Source: Clostridia bacterium (GTDB taxonomy: Bacteria; Bacillota; Clostridia; Oscillospirales; Acutalibacteraceae). From it: a stretch of 64,000 nt of DNA. Below, piece after piece: positions 8,411 to 12,962 of the stretch. Below the pieces are notes generated by a model. It did no database searches. It was given only the letters and a program-made list of their open reading frames with translations, and was not told where the DNA came from. The stretch is from positions 1-64,000 of the forward strand of contig JAFODS010000046.1 in the NCBI GenBank assembly GCA_017380575.1, read 5' to 3'. The first letter of the stretch is position 1, and every line of letters begins with the position of its first letter. The position numbers and the translations under genes were made by a program.

Positions 8411-8438
8411 ATTGCTCATAATTTACATTATGAGCAAT
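8411..8438. repeat. 12-bp-arm palindrome at the edge of the silent hsdS cassette
   Basis: attgctcataat / attatgagcaat, perfect, 4-nt spacer ttac. The right arm is the start of the 67-bp hsdS inverted repeat; the left arm is absent from the expressed hsdS copy. A short palindrome at this point is what a tyrosine-recombinase crossover site could look like. Confidence 0.6.
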
Positions 8439-8484
8439 TCCCTGATGGAACGGTGAAATGTATTGAAGATGAGATACCATTTGA
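8418..8484 (+). repeat. hsdS inverted repeat IR-1, silent copy
   Basis: 67 bp matching the reverse complement of 12700-12766 with one mismatch (at 8479). It encodes the same residues in both places ([19 protein letters not shown]), immediately before target recognition domain 1. Recombination here would exchange the whole variable part of hsdS. Confidence 0.92.
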
Positions 8485-9835
8485 CATTCCTAATGGGTGG
8501 TCGTGGTGCAGATTTTCTTCGGCATTCATCATAAATCCACGAAACCAGCTTTCAGATGATATGTCTGTATCTTTTGTTCCAATGCCACTGATTCAAGAAG
8601 GTTACGTAAATAAGCATACCGATGAGGAAAAAATATGGGGTTCTGTTAAGAGTGGTTTTACTCATTTTGCTAACAACGATGTTGGTGTTGCAAAAATCAC
8701 ACCTTGTTTTGAGAATAAAAAATCTGTTGTGTTTAAGGGACTCAAAAATGGTTACGGTGCAGGAACAACTGAATTGCATATAATAAGAACAATTGACAAC
8801 CTTATCTACCCTGAATATGTTTTATGGAATGTCAAAACTGATAATTTTATTTCTAATGGTATTAAAGCATTTTCAGGTGCGGTTGGACAAAAAAGAATTG
8901 GTAAAGATTTCATTGAAAAATCATTAATTCCTATTGCACCTACCAATGAACAAAAAAGAATACTGGAATGCATATCAATTGCTTTTGAATATATTGATTC
9001 TATCGAAGCTTCAAAAGAAGCGTTTAAAGTGGATATACAGAGTGTTAAGAGTAAAATCCTCGACCTTGCCATCAGGGGTAAGCTTGTGCCTCAGAATCCT
9101 GATGACGAGCCTGCTTCAATCCTTCTTGAACGCATAAGAGCCGAAAAAGAAGACCTCATTAAACAAGGCAAAATCAAGCGTGATAAGAAAGAATCTTTCA
9201 TCTTTAAAGGTGAGGATAACTCTTATTATCGAACTAACGGAAAAACAACTGAATTTTGTGATGATATTCCATTTGATTTGCCAGAGGGTTGGGCTTGGGT
9301 AAGTTTAGGGCAGTATTGCGAAAAAGTAACAGACCAAGTTGCAAGTGGTAGCTTCGCCGCATTAAGAGAAAATGTAGTATCACTCAAGAAACCTTCATAT
9401 GCATTAATGGTAAAAACAGCAGACTTTTCAAATGGTTTTACTAAAAATCTTACCTATACCGATAAACACGGATATGAATTTCTTGAGAATTCAAATTTGT
9501 TTGGCGGGGAGTTAATATTAAGTAACATAGGTTCTATAGGGAAGGTTTTTATAGTTCCGGATTTGAATTGCAAAATGACATTGGCACCAAATTCTGTGAT
9601 GATACGACTAACCAATAATGAATATAGGGATTATCTATATTACTTTTTGCAATCACCAACAGGATACGAGGAGTTGAAAGCAATTTCTACAGGTGTTGCA
9701 ATGTTAAAATTTAACAAAACGGATTTGAAAACTATTCACCTTCCTTTACCACCACTTGCAGAGCAAAAACGAATTGTTGAAGCTATTGAAACAGCGTTTG
9801 CACAGCTCGATGAAATATTAAATTCAATATCATAA
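8453..9835 (+). CDS. hsdS: Silent hsdS cassette A (TRD1 + central region + TRD2)
   Basis: A 460-aa reading frame made of an alternative first target recognition domain (about residues 10-180), the conserved central helix region ([20 protein letters not shown], about 206-225), and a second recognition domain ending with LPPLAEQKRI and a C-terminal helix. It lacks the first ~65 residues of the expressed HsdS and has no ribosome site; an in-frame TAA lies just upstream of the repeat. It is therefore a storage cassette, opposite in orientation to the expressed gene at 11346-12962, and becomes expressed after inversion through IR-1, or donates TRD2 through the central repeat. HsdS sets the DNA sequence recognised by the type I enzyme. 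Confidence 0.88.
   Translation: MKCIEDEIPFDIPNGWSWCRFSSAFIINPRNQLSDDMSVSFVPMPLIQEGYVNKHTDEEKIWGSVKSGFTHFANNDVGVAKITPCFENKKSVVFKGLKNGYGAGTTELHIIRTIDNLIYPEYVLWNVKTDNFISNGIKAFSGAVGQKRIGKDFIEKSLIPIAPTNEQKRILECISIAFEYIDSIEASKEAFKVDIQSVKSKILDLAIRGKLVPQNPDDEPASILLERIRAEKEDLIKQGKIKRDKKESFIFKGEDNSYYRTNGKTTEFCDDIPFDLPEGWAWVSLGQYCEKVTDQVASGSFAALRENVVSLKKPSYALMVKTADFSNGFTKNLTYTDKHGYEFLENSNLFGGELILSNIGSIGKVFIVPDLNCKMTLAPNSVMIRLTNNEYRDYLYYFLQSPTGYEELKAISTGVAMLKFNKTDLKTIHLPLPPLAEQKRIVEAIETAFAQLDEILNSIS
9206..9229 (+). repeat. hsdS inverted repeat IR-2, cassette A copy
   Basis: 24 bp (aaaggtgaggataactcttattat is the sense; identical inverted at 11952-11975) ending a longer, about 80% identical central region. 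It sits just before TRD2 in both genes and could mediate exchange of TRD2 alone. Confidence 0.8.
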
Positions 9836-9840
9836 AAACA

Positions 9841-9870
9841 GCCGTCCTCCAATCAAACGAGGGCGGCTTC
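9841..9870 (-). terminator. Terminator of the recombinase gene
   Basis: Arms gccgtcctc / gagggcggc (one G-T pair) between the converging cassette A and recombinase gene; on the minus strand the stem is followed by tgttttta. Confidence 0.65.
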
Positions 9871-9874
9871 AACT

Positions 9875-10684: not shown

Positions 10685-10755
10685 AAAAAGACACCTCCGT
10701 ATAATAAATTCACGGAATAATCCGCACAAATATTATAACGGAGATGTGTTGACTC

Positions 10756-10773
10756 CTCTTATTATGAGAAGAT
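10756..10773 (+). repeat. hsdS inverted repeat IR-3, cassette B copy
   Basis: ctcttattatgagaagat, identical inverted at 11944-11961 in the expressed hsdS. Both encode Ser-Tyr-Tyr-Glu-Lys in frame at the start of TRD2. Confidence 0.85.
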
Positions 10774-10783
10774 AGGAGAAAGA

Positions 10784-11353
10784 GTGATATGCATTGACCG
10801 TGAATTGCCTTTTGAGATACCAAATAATTGGACTTGGTGTAGATTACAAAGTATCTGCGAGCCTATAACAGATGGCACGCATCAAACCCCAATTTACTCT
10901 AATAACGGCTATGTTTTTTTGTCTGCTAAAAATGTAACGACTGGTTCAATAGATTGGGAGAATGTAATGTATATACCCGAATCATTACACCAAGAACTGT
11001 ATTCACGAATTGCACCGAGAAAAGGAGATATACTGTTGGCAAAAAATGGTACTATAGGCGTCGCGGCTATTGTAGATAGAGACTGCGAATTCGATATTTA
11101 TGTTACATTGGCGCTTATTCGTACTGTCAAACATATTGTCTCTCCTCATTATTTACTAAAAGCAATAGGTAGCACGACAATTCAAAAATTTTTCAAAGGC
11201 TCACTGATAGGTATAGGCGTTCCTAACTTGCATTTGATACACATTCGTCAAGCATTAATACCTATTCCACCTCTTGAAGAACAAGAACGATTGTCAAATG
11301 TGATGAAAGAAATATTTGATATTTTAAGTAATATAGAACATAGTCTCAGCTGA
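10784..11353 (+). CDS. hsdS: Silent hsdS cassette B (TRD2 only)
   Basis: A half-HsdS frame of 189 aa. It starts after IR-3 and contains one target recognition domain (IPNNWTWCRLQSICEPI through LIPIPPLEEQERL) and the C-terminal helix ending NIEHSLS, the same final residues as the expressed HsdS. The reading frame runs through IR-3 in phase with the expressed gene, so inversion between 10756-10773 and 11944-11961 would give a full-length HsdS with this TRD2. There is no ribosome site here, so it is silent as it lies. It converges on the expressed gene and their ends overlap. Confidence 0.88.
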   Translation: MICIDRELPFEIPNNWTWCRLQSICEPITDGTHQTPIYSNNGYVFLSAKNVTTGSIDWENVMYIPESLHQELYSRIAPRKGDILLAKNGTIGVAAIVDRDCEFDIYVTLALIRTVKHIVSPHYLLKAIGSTTIQKFFKGSLIGIGVPNLHLIHIRQALIPIPPLEEQERLSNVMKEIFDILSNIEHSLS

Positions 11354-11368
11354 GGCTATGTTCTATAT
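11331..11368. repeat. 38-bp palindrome at the meeting point of two hsdS 3' ends
   Basis: The two converging hsdS ends form arms atatagaacatagtctcag / ctgaggctatgttctatat with one mismatched pair. It can be the second edge of the invertible cassette and may also act as a two-way terminator hairpin. Confidence 0.75.
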
Positions 11369-12962
11369 CGTCAAGTTTCACATTAATCGAATTTATAGTA
11401 TCAACTATTTGTTTTTGTTCTAAAACTGGAGGTAAAGGTATTAGTATATTTGATAAAATATCCGGTCTTAATTCCTTTTGGTTTGTCGAGCCTTCTCCTG
11501 CGGTTTCAAGATATGGTTGTTTTAATTTTAGTAAAGCATAAATATATTTTGCTACGATTAATTCAGAAACACGAATGGTTGTAATATGAGAATCCGGAAC
11601 AAGCGGTAATCCATATATATCGTCCCTTTTTTCAAATATTCCTACTCGCCCTAAAGTGCCTGTACCAGTTGAGTTAATTACTATATCATTATATTTCATA
11701 AAAAATTCAGGTGGATATTTTTTCAAAACATTTTCATCAAGGTGTTGAGCAAGGGAAATATTGATACTTCCTTTTTTTGTGTTGCATTTTTGAGCAAAAA
11801 CAAGTGTATTACTTTTCTCTGAATATTTTGGGGCTTTACCTCGTTTTATCTCTTTTGTGCAAAGTGTGTTAAGGCGACACCAACACCAATTTTCGGGGAT
11901 AGAAAAAGGTATTTCTTCCGTAATATCAATGATTTCCCCGTCAATCTTCTCATAATAAGAGTTATCCTCACCTTTGAAGATGACAGATTCCTTCTTGTCA
12001 CGCTTGATTTTACCTGCTTTTATCAATTCTTCTTTTTCAGCTCTTATGCGTTTAAGAAGAACTGATGCAGGTTCATCATCTGGGTTTTGCGGGACAAGTT
12101 TGCCTTTGATGGCAAGGTCGAGAATTTTGGATTTCAAAATTGTGATAATATTATTGAGTTCACCATATTCACAATCAAGGATATTTGTTAATTGCTTGAT
12201 TTGTTCTATGCTTACACAGATATTTTCTTGTGTTTTAAACCCACACACAGGAATAAGTGTTGTCAAGATTCTCTCTAAACCAAGTTTGGGCATTGCCACC
12301 TGATAAGTTTTATACTTGAATTGATTTTGCACTAAATTAGATTGCATCATTAAGCATAAAAAAGTCTTGTTTATCTTTATTTCTGTTACACGAACTGCGT
12401 TTTCTGTAAGATTCATACCTTCTAGCTCATCTGGAATTTCTCCTACAGCTCCTATTGTACCTGCAATTGTAATATATAAATCATTCTTTTCAACAATGTA
12501 GTTTTTAATTTTAGAGAAAACTTCATCGTCAATATATTTTAAGTCTGATGTATTTACAGTTTGATTTTTCATATCGGTTACACGAATATAAGCATGACCG
12601 GTTTTTTCGTTTGAAAAAGACATTCCTTTAGGTATTCGTTTACCGCCACGAACAGATGCTATATTACCGATTCTTGTCCAAGCCCATCCATCCGGCAATT
12701 CAAACGGTATCTCATCTTCAATACATTTCACCGTTCCATCAGGGAATTGCTCATAATGTAAATTATCATCACCTTTGAAGATGATTGTGTCGTTTTTAAT
12801 ATCTTTTGCTTTCAGCTTGCCATCCTTAACCATTTGCTCTTTTTCGGCACGGATACGCTCTAAAAGAACAGATGCAGGCTCGTCATTCGGGTCCTGAGGA
12901 ACAAGTTTACCACGAATAGCAAGGTCAAGCACTTTTTCTCTTAATGCTTTTGTATCTATCAT
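11346..12962 (-). CDS. hsdS: Type I restriction-modification specificity subunit (expressed)
   Basis: A 538-aa HsdS, longer than the usual ~400-450 because each half carries a long linker. Order: N-terminal conserved [20 protein letters not shown] (residues 12-31), TRD1 (about 85-270), central [23 protein letters not shown]2, and the C-terminal helix ending DDIEHSLS. The N-terminal and central motifs are repeats of each other. It binds two HsdM and sets the bipartite recognition sequence. Its start overlaps the hsdM stop by 4 nt. Parts on both sides of each TRD recur, inverted, in silent cassettes A and B, so the sequence given is one of up to six combinations (two TRD1 by three TRD2). Confidence 0.93.
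11944..11975 (-). repeat. hsdS inverted repeats IR-2/IR-3, expressed copy
   Basis: Overlapping matches: 11952-11975 pairs with 9206-9229 (24 bp) and 11944-11961 pairs with 10756-10773 (18 bp). This is the junction in front of TRD2. Confidence 0.85.
12700..12766 (-). repeat. hsdS inverted repeat IR-1, expressed copy
   Basis: 67 bp, inverted relative to 8418-8484, one mismatch. It lies just before TRD1. Confidence 0.92.

Follow-up and report, generated by a model that had tools for sequence, protein, structure and literature searches.

We have analysed a 64,000-nt stretch of a Clostridia bacterium genome (GenBank assembly GCA_017380575.1, contig JAFODS010000046.1, positions 1–64,000; hereafter the window), and describe here a type I restriction-modification locus with silent specificity cassettes. 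According to the list of open reading frames, Pfam and PADLOC, the window carries a complete hsdR-hsdM-hsdS operon on the minus strand with all frames open (Table 1). The hsdS gene is followed by a half cassette in tail-to-tail arrangement, by a tyrosine recombinase gene and then by a silent hsdS copy; the silent cassettes lie on the plus strand, have target recognition domains (TRDs) distinct from those of the expressed copy and possess no start of their own. A Pfam scan of the whole draft genome (2.52 Mb in 79 contigs, 88.8% complete) gave five Methylase_S matches, all of which fall within this locus, situated on a 153-kb contig. The original prediction, made from the letters of this DNA, had named an expressed hsdS on the minus strand, two partial hsdS frames on the plus strand and a complete tyrosine recombinase between them, and each of these has been found. 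On the evidence given below, this is very probably a PsrA-type inverting locus whose layout is equivalent to the pneumococcal cod locus (Spn556II/SpnIII), and it represents a new example of an already known kind of system.

Table 1. Features of the type I locus in the window, with strand and the basis of each assignment
Feature	Position	Strand	Basis or remark
Silent hsdS copy, TRD1b-TRD2b, without 5' end	8418-9835	+	two Methylase_S stretches; open frame
T1 repeat, start of silent copy	8418-8478	+	61 nt exact with 12706-12766
T2 repeat type B, silent copy, without GAGAAG arm	9206-9229	+	24 nt exact with 11952-11975
PsrA-family tyrosine recombinase	9875-10684	-	Phage_integrase 6.8e-24; identity to PsrA relatives
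Leader hairpin, with TATAAT in its 5' arm and the recombinase GGAGG covered by its 3' arm	10691-10747	-	folding; coordinates counted by hand
Silent half cassette, TRD2c only	10756-11353	+	Methylase_S 8.2e-10 on 189-aa frame; T2 site at 5' end
T2 site, half cassette	10756-10773	+	exact 18-nt match to 11944-11961; 16-nt core also present in other loci
Palindrome at tail-to-tail ends of hsdS and half cassette	11331-11368	.	11331-11349 / 11350-11368, 95%
Expressed hsdS, TRD1a-TRD2a, 538 aa	11346-12962	-	two Methylase_S stretches; directly behind hsdM
T2 site type A, expressed hsdS, both arms	11944-11975	-	24 nt common with silent copy, 18 nt with half cassette
T1 repeat, expressed hsdS	12706-12766	-	61 nt exact with 8418-8478
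hsdM, methyltransferase subunit, 474 aa	12959-14383	-	Pfam N6_Mtase + HsdM_N; PADLOC MTase_I 1.2e-152
hsdR, restriction subunit, 918 aa	14388-17144	-	Pfam ResIII, EcoEI_R_C; PADLOC REase_I

The recombinase carries the motifs GARVSEL, TKGGK, HSFRH and GHESIETTRIYL, which we take to be the catalytic ones, all in intact form, and its start, judged by eye, is likelier to be the ATG at 10684 than the TTG at 10729 called by the program. An NCBIfam scan gave no match to the recombinase above cut-off. When the protein was compared with plasmid records, the best match was that of Ruminococcus albus 7 (84.5% identity), and others were Segatella hominis (73.8%) and nine Enterococcus faecalis records (71.5%); three Mycoplasmopsis records matched at about 62%, and a Streptococcus dysgalactiae protein annotated as 'tyrosine-type DNA invertase PsrA' at 66.9% over 99% of the query. 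Judged from these identities, the recombinase is a member of the PsrA family. Among 148 genomes, the window's own included, 133 gave some match, and the only close one beyond the window's own gene was found in genome G119 (63%), the next being at 28–36% among the matches listed.

Inverted repeats lie at the boundaries of the TRDs: an exact 61-nt repeat at the TRD1 boundary (T1 sites), an exact 24-nt repeat where the central conserved region ends, and an exact 18-nt repeat that pairs the expressed TRD2 boundary with the half cassette (T2 sites). The 64 kb contain exactly two copies of each of the cores TTTACATTATGAG and CTCTTATTATGAGAAG, in inverted orientation and at these boundaries. In 100 shuffles of the region, which were first-order Markov samples and not exact dinucleotide shuffles, the greatest length of an exact inverted repeat was 13.4 nt on average and 22 nt at most; the 61- and 24-nt repeats are therefore significant by length, being longer than in every shuffle. 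The 24-nt block closes a 177-nt repeat of 84% identity (82% outside the block), and a second longer inexact repeat extends over 94 nt with 88% identity. The repeats had been noticed in the original prediction, whose lengths of 24 and 18 nt at TRD2 are exact; its 67-bp repeat at TRD1 is present at the place given, with an exact part of 61 nt followed by one mismatch and five matches. Its repeats at the 3' ends do link hsdS with the half cassette, as the palindrome of Table 1, and do not include the silent full copy. Similar tail-to-tail palindromes have been found at the same place in five related loci (L040, L047, L049, L050 and L053; L numbers denote the loci of our collection).

A static remnant, in which a duplicated hsdS and an inactive recombinase have been left after loss of switching, would be in keeping with the incomplete type B and half-cassette sites and with switching in this genome being a prediction from sequence. 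We consider this quite improbable because all frames are open and the motifs of the recombinase are intact. Furthermore, 21 of 28 differences between the silent and expressed hsdS in their shared region are at third codon positions, indicating that the silent copy has been under coding constraint, and the identical 61-nt block adjoins diverged sequence.

When inversions between like sites were carried out in silico, eight arrangements were obtained with six full-length HsdS proteins of 531–538 aa, and hsdS was open in all eight, in accordance with the earlier claim that the frames stay in phase through the repeats. The proposed number of up to six HsdS variants and the phase-variable layout with a linked recombinase both stand as predictions, the latter with the repeats, the PsrA-family match and a cod-like gene set behind it; we refine them by specifying cod/SpnIII with its PsrA-family invertase as the closest arrangement and by placing the recombinase gene itself within the larger inverting segments. 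In the mechanism that we propose, the recombinase would bring together two inverted sites belonging to the same class and flip the intervening DNA. Inversion between the two T1 sites would exchange the entire variable part, and that between the type A T2 site and the half-cassette site would exchange TRD2a and TRD2c. Inversion between the type A and type B T2 sites, by the recombinase or by recombination within the shared central region, would exchange TRD2a and TRD2b and turn the recombinase gene over. Since a start is present only in the copy behind hsdM, each cell would express a single HsdS out of the six that two TRD1 and three TRD2 allow, and the sequences methylated and restricted would differ between sister cells; switching, differing methylomes and any phage resistance in the source strain are predictions.

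The pneumococcal cod locus (Spn556II/SpnD39III) is composed of hsdR, hsdM, a full hsdSA (1566 bp), a half gene hsdSB (609 bp), psrA and a silent hsdSC (1281 bp), and its three inverted repeat pairs give eight inversion forms, with six full alleles and three truncated forms (PMC4948785). The gene set, the three repeat pairs, the eight forms and the six full alleles are the same in the window, whereas the exact repeats are of 61, 24 and 18 nt in the window and of 85, 298 and 15 in cod. The likeness concerns the layout and not the TRDs, and our comparison with PsrA was made with the S. dysgalactiae protein, not with the pneumococcal one. In a REBASE survey, 875 of 22,107 hsdS genes (3.9%) shared a repeat with a second hsdS of the same locus; such loci have already been reported there for 'multiple Ruminococcus species', and recombinases like that of SpnD39III are described as widespread (PMC7394358).

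Whereas the inversions themselves are predicted, the genes, the repeats, the open frames and the family of the recombinase have been established here, and so has the conservation of the sites in other species. One scan of a public genome collection gave 50 recombinase loci at 53–93% identity, and an hsdS-like frame lies directly beside the recombinase in 25 of them and about 5 kb off in L045; in the remaining 24, no hsdS-like frame was found within the sequence around the recombinase, some of which is on short contigs. At recombinase identities of at least 84% (L036-L054), hsdS adjoins in 18 of 19 loci. The closest plasmid relative, R. albus 7 pRUMAL02 (L086), has the same gene order and the T2 core CTCTTATTATGAGAAG; unlike in the window, its locus is on a plasmid, and its hsdM group differs (no long DNA match). 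When 14 hsdM genes were compared, the long DNA alignments fell into three groups, and the switching module therefore accompanies different type I backbones. An assembly artefact, in which reads of different isomers or strains have been joined, might be suspected from the 79 contigs and incomplete state of the draft and because contigs of several relatives start or stop inside the locus (e.g. L036, L037, L042, L044 and L057). This is highly improbable, however, considering the 153-kb contig and the presence of the same gene order on the circular R. albus 7 plasmid record.

Arrangements differ among the relatives. In 14 loci with hsdM visible, including the window and R. albus, the core is oriented one way relative to hsdM in eight and the other way in six; L045, L066, L067 and L068 were left out because hsdS was not adjacent, the contig was cut or the half cassette was flipped, and no half cassette was detected in L054. 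Between L049 and L050, whose hsdM genes are 86.5% identical, the core orientation is opposite and the DNA running from TRD2 to the half cassette is turned round, at 86% identity, and the expressed TRD1 region of L049 matches the silent TRD1 region of L053 at 89%; orthologous segments thus occupy different slots in L049 as compared with L050 and L053. The nine E. faecalis plasmid records (L088, L092-L099) share with the window the T1 spacer TTAC and the right arm of the sites, but have two half cassettes and the T2 spacer GCCT and occur as isomers among isolates. After exclusion of L088, which is cut, the eight complete copies, which come from different isolates and not from one clone, show eight different arrangements of blocks with 98–100% identity, and the breaks are at the sites; the pattern used to locate sites did not pick up the T1 sites in L093, nor the first half cassette of L095, L096, L098 and L099. 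In these copies, the left arm keeps to its place and the right arm, with the variant ATTATAAG, travels with the TRD, which places the crossover within the spacer or next to it. At TRD2 sites in E. faecalis no TRD1 fingerprint was reported, nor the reverse. These relatives support the view that loci of this type really switch.

Several points weigh against the PsrA-type inverting locus as we have drawn it. Inversion in the source strain is predicted, with isomers known from relatives only. The 18-nt repeat is no longer than chance permits when compared with the shuffle maximum of 22 nt, and its support comes from its position and its recurrence in other species. Inversion between the type A and type B T2 sites may not be made by the recombinase because the type B site is without the right arm. 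The E. faecalis copies L094 (positions 5112 and 10798) and L096 (5028 and 10882) have the same TRD1 in both hsdS genes, which inversion alone cannot produce. In pneumococcus, IR2 and IR3 inversions remained intact without psrA in one study (PMC4948785), and according to the title of another, spnIII recombination does not depend on any known site-specific recombinase of pneumococcus (PMC6620402). The first of these reports and the presence of the 94-nt (88%) and 177-nt (84%) repeats speak for the alternative that the cassettes switch mainly by general homologous recombination in the repeats with a minor part for the recombinase. We nevertheless regard this as unlikely because the half cassette has no more than 16–21 nt in common with hsdS (window, L040 and L047-L053), a short length for recombination by homology, because the same core is again found upstream of half cassettes in cases where a complete gene is without it, and because PsrA is dominant according to PMC7096588. 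In the same source, the PsrA-driven IR2 and IR3 inversions require IR1-like sequences inside those repeats, in keeping with the arm shared by both site classes described below.

In most near loci, T1 has the form AAT-TT(A/G)C-ATTATGAG and T2 the form AAC-TCTT-ATTATGAGAAG, half cassettes being without AAC; other T1/T2 spacer pairs are TTTC/TTTT (L042), CGCC/TG(T,C)T (L057 and L059), ACTC/TCTC (L067) and TTAC/GCCT (E. faecalis). In these loci, the right arm is common to both classes and the spacer is class-specific. In L073, both of the sites found have ATCC and could belong to the same class. In tyrosine recombinases in general, spacer identity decides the partners, and by analogy it presumably decides the partner sites here. 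The 4-nt spacer difference, which is TTAC at TRD1 and TCTT at TRD2 in the window, could keep the TRD1 and TRD2 classes of cassettes apart.

Another local pattern concerns GAG in the right arm of T2. It occurs in 0 of 20 Clostridia-type loci in the hsdS copy on the 3' side of the recombinase, which is direct to the half cassette (0 of 22 when L054, with no half detected, and L067, with the half flipped, are included); it occurs in 17 of 17 hsdS copies inverted to the half cassette and in 18 of 19 half cassettes themselves (exception L042). These counts were made by hand, L036, L041 and L043 are only partly visible, and related loci are not independent. Five direct copies (L054, L057, L059, L067 and L086) still encode Glu, by GAA. 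As to the Glu background in ordinary HsdS, 13 of 295 genomes gave matches, nearly all of which, except the window's own and that of G251, end before the site. For these reasons, and since E. faecalis has full right arms in direct orientation, a safeguard against direct repeats was dropped as a general rule.

The leader of the recombinase gene is predicted to form a hairpin. Leaders of 19 near-group loci fold to a stem with TATAAT in the 5' arm and a 3' arm that reaches or covers GGAGG; TATAAT anchored the choice of the region, and selection therefore accounts in part for its being found in all 19. The stems have a mean z of -3.6 against first-order Markov samples, not exact dinucleotide shuffles, and the mean probability that GGAGG is unpaired is 0.13 with the whole stem vs 0.43 for a transcript starting 7 nt after TATAAT, a native start that is assumed. 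Exceptions are L038, which is reversed (0.41 vs 0.05), and L050 (0.20, 0.20) and L047 (0.32, 0.35), which show no difference. Pairing with the own arm amounts to -13.2 kcal/mol vs -10.0 for foreign arms of other species; this advantage was reached in 0 of 20,000 permutations, likewise with 15 thinned sequences, and in 61 and 40 of 20,000 when the 5' arm was limited to its outer 9 nt, the permutations ignoring relatedness. In some insertion sequences, a stem silences read-through transcripts and spares the native one. Because the recombinase has the same direction as hsdRMS in the window, read-through could yield recombinase, and the stem would perhaps silence such read-through transcripts and spare the native transcript. 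A promoter scan listed no site with the leader TATAAT as its second hexamer, and the promoter is thus unsupported by that scan. An always-repressing hairpin was also considered and is unlikely, since TATAAT forms part of the 5' arm, so that the start of the native transcript should fall within the stem.

Taking these patterns together, we tentatively suggest, as an idea less likely to be right than not, that the PsrA module may be a diversifier that is self-contained and moves horizontally, with TRD classes sorted by the 4-nt spacer, with arms that in the Clostridia-type loci are split between sites, and with a hairpin, formed from the -10 region of the recombinase gene itself, that hides its ribosome-binding site in any transcript reading in from the hsd operon. 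If this is true, too little sequence would be common to the half cassette and to the hsdS copy in direct repeat for the recombinase to be deleted, and the switching rate would be independent of restriction-gene expression and of orientation. No account of the spacer classes or of a psrA leader hairpin was found in the accessible portions of the literature searched (including PMC12324116 and PMC11709252), subscription papers being mostly outside it; both are testable ideas on shufflon order and switching rate. The layout of the six-way epigenetic switch of pneumococcus is now found with the same gene order in an anaerobic gut-type Clostridia. Some two dozen related loci are spread over type I backbones of at least three groups, which suggests a diversifying module that is mobile and not a pathogen-specific switch.

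Other relatives of the recombinase deserve mention. No hsdS was found in the sequence around L055, L056, L058, L060-L065, L069-L072, L074-L082 and L085 (53–79%), and recombinase frames are close together in L080 (two) and L081 (four). In Mycoplasmopsis L090, L100 and L101, related recombinases adjoin hsdS, and the repeats differ and contain TAGTTAACACTAT.

The surroundings of the locus look like a variable defence region. GC is low (33–38%) from 8 to 30 kb, as compared with 41–45% to the left and 40–46% from 34 to 40 kb. On the minus strand, the interval 17445-21745 contains two adjacent GmrSD_N genes (17445-19421 and 19421-21118) together with a Fic gene, which matches the PADLOC candidate family PDC-S04. 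Beside guaA lie a Mob_Pre relaxase (29251-30444) and an integrase (32162-33229), and a 14-bp direct repeat, at 34003-34016 in the guaA 3' end and at 1773-1786, 32 kb apart, may mark the ends of an integrated element. A single element from 1773 to 34016 at guaA, suggested by this repeat, is weakened by the congener G009, in which the left flank 358-7929 is retained at 93%; because this flank and guaA are on different contigs in G009, a left edge at about 7.93–8.4 kb is more likely. Beyond the left flank, G009 (L154 9820-15920) has a different, large restriction-subunit-like frame and an hsdS-like frame, both named by eye, which look like another type I system, and after the equivalent of 7929 there is a 180-nt match to the guaA 3' region of the window (33843-34019). 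A 193-nt stretch beside the silent copy (8205-8397) has a 90.7% match at L154 3724-3916, near the sortase region of G009, and is perhaps a small repeat element. Lastly, a TPP riboswitch was found at 40737-40832 on the minus strand (63.4 bits).

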